Below are positions 1,578-3,348 of a DNA stretch of 12,025 nt, one piece after another (position 1 is the stretch's first letter; each line of letters begins with the position of its first letter). A model generated the notes under the pieces. That model had not been told where the DNA came from. It was given only the letters and a program-made list of their open reading frames with translations, and ran no database searches. The stretch is from Candidatus Tectimicrobiota bacterium (GTDB lineage Bacteria > JACPSX01): assembly GCA_016193065.1 (NCBI GenBank), contig JACPSX010000085.1, positions 1-12,025 of the forward strand, read 5' to 3'. A program made the translations under genes and the position numbers.

Positions 1578-1606
1578 ATGTTAGGGACCTCATGCTGCCT
1601 TGTCAA
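1578..1606 (-). promoter_or_regulatory. Sigma-70-type promoter for the rhodanese operon
   Basis: On the minus strand a perfect -35 TTGACA (1601-1606) lies 17 bp from TAACAT (1578-1583), which matches the -10 consensus at 4 of 6 positions. An A/T-rich tract just upstream (about 1605-1617, AAAAAATATTTTT) looks like an UP element. Transcription would start near 1570, about 55 nt before the rhodanese ATG. A TATAAT at 1570-1575 is badly spaced for this -35. Confidence 0.65.
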
Positions 1607-1657: not shown

Positions 1658-1685
1658 ACCCCGATCTGAAATTCTTCTTCGGGGT
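1658..1685. other. 7-bp hairpin next to the folded element
   Basis: ACCCCGA (1658-1664) and TCGGGGT (1679-1685) are perfectly complementary around a 14-base loop. Neither strand has a following T-run, so it is not scored as a terminator. It lies between the spoVR stop and the rhodanese promoter. Confidence 0.3.
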
Positions 1686-1691
1686 CATTTG

Positions 1692-1824
1692 GCGGAGGCC
1701 CGCGGGTGGCGTCGGGGACGCCTCCGCAGAGCCGCGCCGGGCACCCGCCTTGCGGGTGCGGGACCCTCGTCAGGGTGACGGAGCGCGGCTTGAGGAGGCA
1801 ACCCGGCGACAGGCCCTGCGGGCC
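1692..1824. repeat. GC-rich multi-stem element (possible structured RNA or palindromic repeat)
   Basis: This fills most of the roughly 260-base gap between the spoVR stop and the rhodanese promoter. Complementary arms seen by eye: GCCTCC (1720-1725) with GGAGGC (1794-1799); AGCCGCGC (1730-1737) with GCGCGGCT (1783-1790); inside these, hairpin GCACCCGC/GCGGGTGC (1741-1759, three-base loop) and hairpin ACCCT/AGGGT (1763-1776). Together they make a three-way junction. GCGGAGGC (1692-1699) can instead pair with 1720-1727, and GGCGTC/GACGCC (1708-1722) forms another competing hairpin. A further hairpin, GGCCC/GGGCC (1812-1824), is flanked by CGACAG direct repeats (1807-1812, 1825-1830). No matching known riboswitch motif was recognised. 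It could be the 3' end of the prkA operon transcript, a dispersed palindromic repeat, or an independent small RNA. The strand cannot be decided. Confidence 0.55.
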
Positions 1825-1866
1825 CGACAGCGCGGATCAACTAGGTTTGTTTTCTTCGGATTGGGG

Positions 1867-3348
1867 CTAGATGTCTTTTTCCAGGTGCTCCTGGCCCGTG
1901 AAGCTGAGCCTCTTTTTCCGGCCTTCCACCGTGGTGTGGATGTGGACGGGGCGGCGCCAGATCTGGAAGAGATTCTTCAAGGTATCCTTGGCGTAATCGA
2001 TCCGCAGATCAACCCCTTCGTGCTGATGGTTCAGGAGGAGATCTCCGCGATTCCCATGGTTCCCGTCTTCCACGAGGATGATCGGGTTCCCCATGTTGGT
2101 CAGGCTGAAGAGGAGCTTTTGCTTGATCTTTTTAAAATCTCGATCATCGATTTCGTAGCGTTTGGTCTCTTCATTGTACTTGAATGTGAAAAGCTTGTGA
2201 TCCTCGCAGAACTCTTTGGTTAGAAACGTATCGATGAAGTTAATGTCGTTGTATATGCGGCGGACTTCGAAGATCTTTTCCCGCCCCCGGCCCAGGTTTT
2301 GATTCCAATTCTTCTTGGCCAGGTAGTCGTCGCATTCGTCGTAATCCTTGCCGAACTTCCCCTTGTTCCAGCGCTCCTCGATGTCCCGGAAAAGCTCCAC
2401 GCCAAGCTTATAGGGGTTGATGTGCCCGGGCCTGACGGCCAGGGTCCCCGAATGGTGATCGGCGTAATCGATCAGTTCGGAATCCTTCAAGGCTTTTTCC
2501 GTCATGATCTTCGAGTGCCAGTAGGTGGCCCATCCTTCGTTCATGATTTTCGTTTGAGCCTGGGGGGAGAAGTAGTAGCTCTCCTCCCGGATCATGGAGA
2601 GGATGTTGCGCTGCCACTTCTCCATCGGGGCGTGCTCGATCATGAACAGGAGGATATCGCGCTCGGGATGCTCGGGGAACATGCGCTCGCGCTGTTTTTC
2701 CTCCTCCAGCTTGCGCTTCTGGGCGTCCATGAACTCCTGGGGGTTGATGAAGCGGTCCATGTATTCCTTGCTGCGGATCTTTTGCACGGTTTTGGGAGGC
2801 TCTTCTTCCTCGATCTCTTGATCCTCCCTCCGGCGCTTTCTCTCCTGGAAGGGGGAGTGGACATCAATGAGGTTTTCCAGGGAGAGGCAGCAGTCGATGA
2901 AGCGCTCCACATCTTCCTCGCCGTACTGCTCCACGTAATTGCGCATCCGCATGCCGTGGTTTGCCATCTCGTCGATCATCTTGCGGTTCGTGCTGGAGAA
3001 GTAGATGTTGTTTTTGAAAAAATCGCAATGGGCGTATACGTGACCCATGACGATCTTCTGATCCACCAGGTTATTGCTTTCCATGAGGTAGGCATAGCAG
3101 GGGTCGTTGTTGATCACCATCTCGTAGATTTTTTGGAGTCCGTAGGCATACCCTTTGCTTAACTCCTCGTACTCCATCCCGAACCGCCAGTGCGGATAGC
3201 GGGTCGGGAAGCCTCCGTAGCTGGCCACCTCGTTGATCTGGGCGTAGTCGATAACCTCGAAGATCGTTTCGAAGAAGTCGAGACCGCAGGATAGGGCGTG
3301 GCCTTTAATTTCCTCCTTGATCTGGGTGAGGGCGGAAGAGAGGTTCAT
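1867..3348 (-). CDS. spoVR: SpoVR family protein
   Basis: A complete 493-residue SpoVR/YcgB-family protein (E. coli YcgB is about 510). The name comes from a Bacillus sporulation locus, but the family is widespread in non-sporulating bacteria and its biochemical role is unknown. Family landmarks visible: [17 protein letters not shown] at 45-61; [13 protein letters not shown] at 102-114 with H103 and H107; NEGWATYWH at 270-278; HINPYKLG at 309-316; and a His/Asn/Gly-rich stretch at 429-445 ([17 protein letters not shown]). The repeated conserved His and Glu residues look like metal ligands, but that is inference. Residues about 168-225 form a highly charged, probably flexible insert. The start at 3346-3348 was chosen because it begins the conserved region, has the SD stretch GGAAAGG, and overlaps the yeaH stop by four bases (ATGA). 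An upstream in-frame extension lies inside yeaH and is not homologous-looking. No signal peptide; cytoplasmic. Confidence 0.93.

Follow-up and report, generated by a model that had tools for sequence, protein, structure and literature searches.

The hairpin-rich DNA between spoVR and the rhodanese gene in the window, the 12,025-nucleotide stretch analyzed here (Candidatus Tectimicrobiota bacterium, contig JACPSX010000085.1), is very probably a copy of a mobile DNA element that is MITE-like, non-autonomous and composed of nested palindromes. It is repeated in its own genome, has defined ends with target duplications and is built of layers lying one inside the other; the stems of its inner core covary, and the core is patchily spread over other phyla. 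An earlier note on this DNA, which had set the limits at 1692-1824, offered a dispersed palindromic repeat, a stabilizing 3′ end of the prkA operon RNA and a new small RNA as options, of which the repeat turned out to be the right one. Coordinates are given in Table 1.

Table 1. Positions of the element and of its parts in the window
Feature	Position	Strand	Remark
Left target-site duplication, CTAA	1655..1658	.	other copies with perfect 4-bp duplications
MITE-like element of class A, full extent, 208 bp	1659..1866	+	copy alignment, TIR/TSD scan, pairwise identity
Left terminal inverted repeat, CCCCGATCTGAAA, 13 bp	1659..1671	+	
Outer palindrome arm GGCCCGC around core	1697..1703	+	pairs with 1818-1824
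Hairpin core, GGGTGGCG...GACAGGCCCT	1704..1817	+	common to Rokubacteria and Aminicenantes MAGs
Basal stem, 5′ side (GCCTCC + AGCCGCGC)	1720..1737	+	pairs with 1783-1799
Nested dispersed hairpin, GGGCACCCGC-CTT-GCGGGTG	1739..1758	+	one of 83 genome copies
Invariant tip, GGGACCCTCGTCAGGGTGACG	1760..1780	+	
Basal stem, 3′ side	1783..1799	+	pairs with 1720-1737
Outer palindrome arm GCGGGCC	1818..1824	+	pairs with 1697-1703
Right terminal inverted repeat, CCCCAATCCGAAG read on minus strand, 13 bp	1854..1866	-	
Right target-site duplication, CTAG	1867..1870	.	1867-1869 doubles as TAG stop of spoVR (minus strand)

Copies, ends and target duplications

The own genome (2.9 Mb in 294 contigs, a fragmented assembly that is 86% complete) contains about 20 further copies of the core and gave 21 matches at E ≤ 1.2e-10, plus many short ones; several copies stop at contig ends. 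Copies are thus present outside this locus, and the grounds for refutation given in the earlier note, conservation at this locus only, do not apply. Alignment of the copies together with their flanks revealed that they are alike from window position 1659 to 1866 and that the flanks outside are unrelated. The limits first proposed were therefore too narrow, since homologous copies span this whole range plus the target duplications. The usual length of the element without extra hairpins is 191 bp. In the aligned own-genome copies the common block opens with CCCC(A/G)ATC(C/T)GAAA and the inverted repeat of this sequence, TTCGGATTRGGG, closes it. When the genome was scanned for pairs of such ends, the 13-bp terminal inverted repeats (TIRs) turned up at about 25 own-genome loci, most of them bordered on either side by a perfect YTRR-type direct repeat of 4 bp (TTAA, CTAA, TTAG, GTAA, TTGG, TTGA and CTGA were seen). 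In the window copy, only 3 of the 4 bases of the duplication match. Several insertions fall on stop codons, in no excess over expectation (5 of 16 versus 4.2 expected, P 0.34, in a crude test), and stop-codon targeting was rejected.

No mobilizing enzyme was found in a scan for two transposase families, RAYT (PF01797) and DDE (PF01609). The RAYT-like and IS4-type loci of the own genome are not flanked by the TIRs, and these genes were rejected as mobilizers, the ends of the element not lying beside them. Among the matches listed for this 86% complete genome, no pair of TIRs encloses a stretch as long as a gene. An empty site for the element was not seen either, so that we infer its movement. 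One copy (C21, locus L161) was considered as an empty site and rejected, as a deletion between the direct repeats GCGGGTG of a copy like C40 or C133 explains it. A putative transposase would cut at CCC(C/T)(A/G)ATCCGAAA ends and duplicate 4 bp, and so move the shell.

Folding and nested layers

All complementary arms claimed in the earlier note were recovered in the window sequence: 1692-1699 with 1720-1727 (8 nt, perfect complement), 1730-1737 with 1783-1790 (perfect) together with 1720-1725 and 1794-1799, 1741-1748 with 1752-1759 (perfect), and a small hairpin at 1763-1767/1772-1776. The predicted minimum free energy (MFE) fold agrees with the proposed basal stem enclosing two hairpins. The claim that this nesting exceeds that of usual GC-rich sequence was borne out with a z score of about −5: the MFE of 1692-1824 was −92.3 kcal/mol as compared to −72.8 ± 3.7 in 200 dinucleotide shuffles (z −5.2), none of which folded as stably. 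The whole element gave −117.2 versus −97.5 when shuffled (z −4.5), and the most stable 208-base segments of the 12 kb correspond to this region.

Three layers can be distinguished in the window copy, a TIR shell, within it the hairpin core and, in the tip of the core, a 20-bp hairpin. The core, GGGTGGCG...GACAGGACC(T), measures about 97 bp and lies inside the arm GGCCCGC/GCGGGCC; its length is 96-98 nt without extra arms in Rokubacteria and Aminicenantes MAGs and 114 in the window copy because of the nested hairpin. The 20-bp hairpin, GGGTACCCGC-NNN-GCGGGTG, has 83 copies in the own genome at ≤1 mismatch and none in the reversed control, and its 3-nt loop is hypervariable, free to differ between copies. 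It constitutes a REP-like family in its own right. In the window copy, and likewise in C166, it stands in for the usual GCGAAA-type segment beside the tip and thereby turns a single long hairpin into a three-way junction. The three-way junction of the earlier note is thus present in these copies and does not represent the general fold, most copies having one hairpin at this position. In the own-genome alignment such hairpins also occur at two further positions in some other copies, and some contain another arm, GGCACCGAG...CTTGGTCGG, likewise present in the Rokubacteria MAG. A resemblance to group II intron domain V (GAGCCG...CGGTTC) was dropped, as it is not conserved in other copies.

The core in other phyla and its covariation

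Every own-genome copy of the core with readable flanks sits in the TIR shell, and it is from other phyla that a movement of the core itself is deduced. Among about 85,000 genomes, the exact 19-nt tip occurs in three MAGs (one Rokubacteria, two Aminicenantes) and, apparently by chance, in two isolated matches from Streptomyces. One copy of the core in the Rokubacteria MAG is about 90% identical over 103 bp, and there as well as in a few Aminicenantes MAGs the core is found without the TIR shell. Of the 142 genomes in the class to which the Lac Pavin Aminicenantes MAG belongs, five contain the core, with 14, 13, 4, 2 and 1 matches (the lone match in the fifth genome being weak) and none in controls. 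The distribution is patchy, like that of mobile DNA. Phages, plasmids and viral contigs gave no match.

Compensatory changes between the arms, the check proposed in the earlier note, were observed in three sets of homologous copies. In 12 copies of G061 (Aminicenantes MAG, isolate M_DeepCast_400m), 7 pairs had changed on both sides as compared to a mean of 2.2 in shuffles (0/500), and one helix passes from G-C,U-A via A-U,U-A to G-C,C-G. The own-genome set, to which one row each from Rokubacteria and Aminicenantes was added, gave 10 versus 1.5 (0/500), and eleven distinct cores of the Aminicenantes genomes G140 and G144 gave 7 versus 2.3 (0/500). These shuffles ignore kinship; the signal vanishes when the partner is slid by 1-3 columns. 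The tip and the inner loops are nearly invariant while the core stems covary. This pattern would be accounted for if the core were kept as a folded single strand, either lagging-strand DNA or RNA.

The core may alternatively be a structured non-coding RNA, small or protein-binding, that is carried by the mobile element and whose stems and tip reflect selection on the RNA. This is unlikely. Covariation in three sets and internal-loop and tip residues that are invariant from the own genome to Aminicenantes would agree with it, as would the 63 G-U versus 14 A-C cells on this strand; counted by columns, however, G-U and A-C amount to 19 versus 14 (P 0.49), with a structure that was drawn from this same strand. 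The column counts do not separate RNA from single-stranded DNA as the selected form, and give no significant sign of strand-specific RNA selection. Moreover, there is neither a gene-orientation bias nor an Rfam match, and REPs likewise keep folded DNA under selection.

Flanks of the core

The flanks of the core were compared in 16 copies of G140 and G144 with a 95- or 96-bp core, one of them shortened by an assembly gap. These cores are nearly identical and their ends sharp; the flanks are private to each copy yet complementary within the copy, as in GCCTGCCGGGC|core|GCCCGGCAGGC and GTGCCCAGC|core|GCTGGGTAC and, in Rokubacteria, GGAATTCGGGGC|core|GCCCCGGAATTCC. Of 10 flank positions 5.5 pair, as compared to 3.9 when flanks are cross-paired between copies (P<1/5000), and 4.3 versus 2.7 when the two nearest bases are skipped. 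Because the cores are nearly identical, a slow co-evolution of private stems with them is unlikely. The core either inserts into palindromes already present or copies one flank upon insertion, and its recurrence at the centers of many unrelated palindromes suggests a spread through hairpin-forming DNA. We tentatively consider the core an independent mobile hairpin, aimed at palindrome centers or loops or palindromizing its flank at insertion, and the MITE present here a palindromic host that it colonized and spread with; this remains somewhat less probable than the contrary. If true, insertion of the core would be directed by structure and not by sequence, and the near-identical cores with private self-complementary flanks offer a direct test of target choice by secondary structure. 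No clean empty palindrome was found in 0.79 Mb of G140, where the flanks are partly other repeats. The same 0.79 Mb contains related repeats as well as a variant, at locus L261, whose ends are the same but whose interior differs.

A further repeat of G140, GACACAGAACCCCGA...GGCGTTCTGTGTC, is a hairpin of about 50 bp with several copies (loci L257, L253, L252, L275, L266 and L242), one of them right beside a core insertion.

Position next to spoVR

The element lies directly against spoVR, whose TAG stop is held in the right duplication. The rhodanese gene is separated from the element by a promoter-like site (TTGACA-17-TAACAT, window 1578-1606, minus strand). According to crude gene calls, the copies show no orientation bias; they are found in both orientations, whether the neighboring genes are divergent, convergent or co-directional. 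At 1500-1950 no intrinsic terminator (GC-rich hairpin plus T run) was found on either strand. The Rfam scan suggested in the earlier note returned no family, with no match in the window at the gathering score and, for related loci at a relaxed threshold, only a chance miRNA match (E 0.29). A cis-acting RNA role is therefore unsupported. This leaves two options of the earlier note without support, the 3′ end of the prkA operon RNA and the small RNA, in view of the varied gene orientations, the missing terminator and the missing Rfam family.

That the element serves the prkA-yeaH-spoVR transcript as a 3′-end stabilizer, terminator or insulator, and is kept for that, is accordingly very improbable. 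It does start right at the stop codon of spoVR, forms a stable fold on either strand and is followed by a rhodanese gene with its own promoter-like site (1606-1578, minus strand), but a T-tract is lacking, copies lie in every gene arrangement and, in the crude test, duplications do not fall on stop codons more often than expected. A regulatory switch between two mutually exclusive folds, which the earlier note had raised, is hardly conceivable: the perfect complementarity of 1692-1699 to 1720-1727 holds in the window copy, but the competing arm GCGGAGGC becomes GCTGAGGC, GCGTTGGC, GCGAAGGC, ACGCAGGC or GAATTGGC in other copies, with loss of perfect pairing, and the three-way junction itself rests on a hairpin found in few copies only. 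The MITE-like insertion that lies between spoVR and the rhodanese gene is best regarded as tolerated, and is probably harmless. It would have inserted at the stop codon of spoVR, thereby parting spoVR from the rhodanese promoter; any effect on the 3′ end of the spoVR mRNA would be a side effect.

Relation to known repeat families

Small bacterial palindromes have mostly been catalogued family by family, with no settled view of how they multiply. The present locus allows three layers of mobile hairpins to be peeled apart, the inner core being traceable across phyla through its fixed tip and covarying stems. Like the bacterial MITEs (Correia/NEMIS, ERIC, RUP; reviewed in PMC10969869), the element is short, non-coding and intergenic, has TIRs and target duplications, folds strongly and lacks a transposase of its own (PMC10969869). 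Shared TIRs, duplications of a fixed 4 bp and dispersed copies with unrelated flanks and no coding capacity make the shell MITE-like in every tested feature except a known parent. Unlike bacterial MITEs, it has no parent IS that could be found, it contains a separable covarying core that occurs shell-free in other phyla, plus nested dispersed hairpins, and its genome has the same perfect TIRs around unrelated single-copy interiors.

With REPs and BIMEs the element shares its nature of dispersed palindromes (PMC3733652), and Di Nocera et al. (2013, PMC3733652) described REPs inside larger palindromes of A. variabilis, T. roseum and H. neapolitanus. CGTC-tagged REPs, which have no dedicated transposase, are defined by an unpaired CGTC tag, an 8-9 bp stem starting with AT and a CCA tail (PMC3733652). 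The minus strand of the tip, CGTC-ACCCT-GACG-AGGGT-CCCA, recalls this tag and tail; however, its stem has 5 instead of 8-9 bp, the AT start is absent and the bases of the CGTC tag form pairs, which covary in G061 (CATC, CGCC). The core ends carry no GTAG tag, and the RAYT-like loci of the own and the Aminicenantes genomes are not flanked by core or tip. The core thus fits neither the GTAG/RAYT nor the CGTC definition of REPs (PMC3733652), and differs from REPs further in its unit of about 97 bp and in that RAYT adjoins no copy seen. Yeast mitochondrial palindromic GC clusters are likewise mobile, GC-rich hairpins and become mosaics by merging and shuffling (PMC4478555), whereas the present element resides in bacterial chromosomes and has a larger core with a conserved tip and a TIR shell with 4-bp duplications. 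By analogy, the core would work like a REP-type palindrome, and its mosaic habit resembles that of the GC clusters. The element belongs with the known MITE/REP mosaics.

At least eleven elements of 96-191 bp in the own genome carry CCCCGATCCGAAA ends, perfect or nearly so, with 4-bp duplications, around mutually unrelated interiors that are each present once in that genome (loci L124-L133, L140 and L141; C99, C100, C131, C189, C231, C250, C287, C166, C123, C175 and C69). Class-C interiors, when sought elsewhere in the own genome, were each single copy. A second related family of 190 bp has CCCCGATCCGACA ends and 4-bp duplications and is found at loci L134-L137 (C136, C26, C40 and C282).
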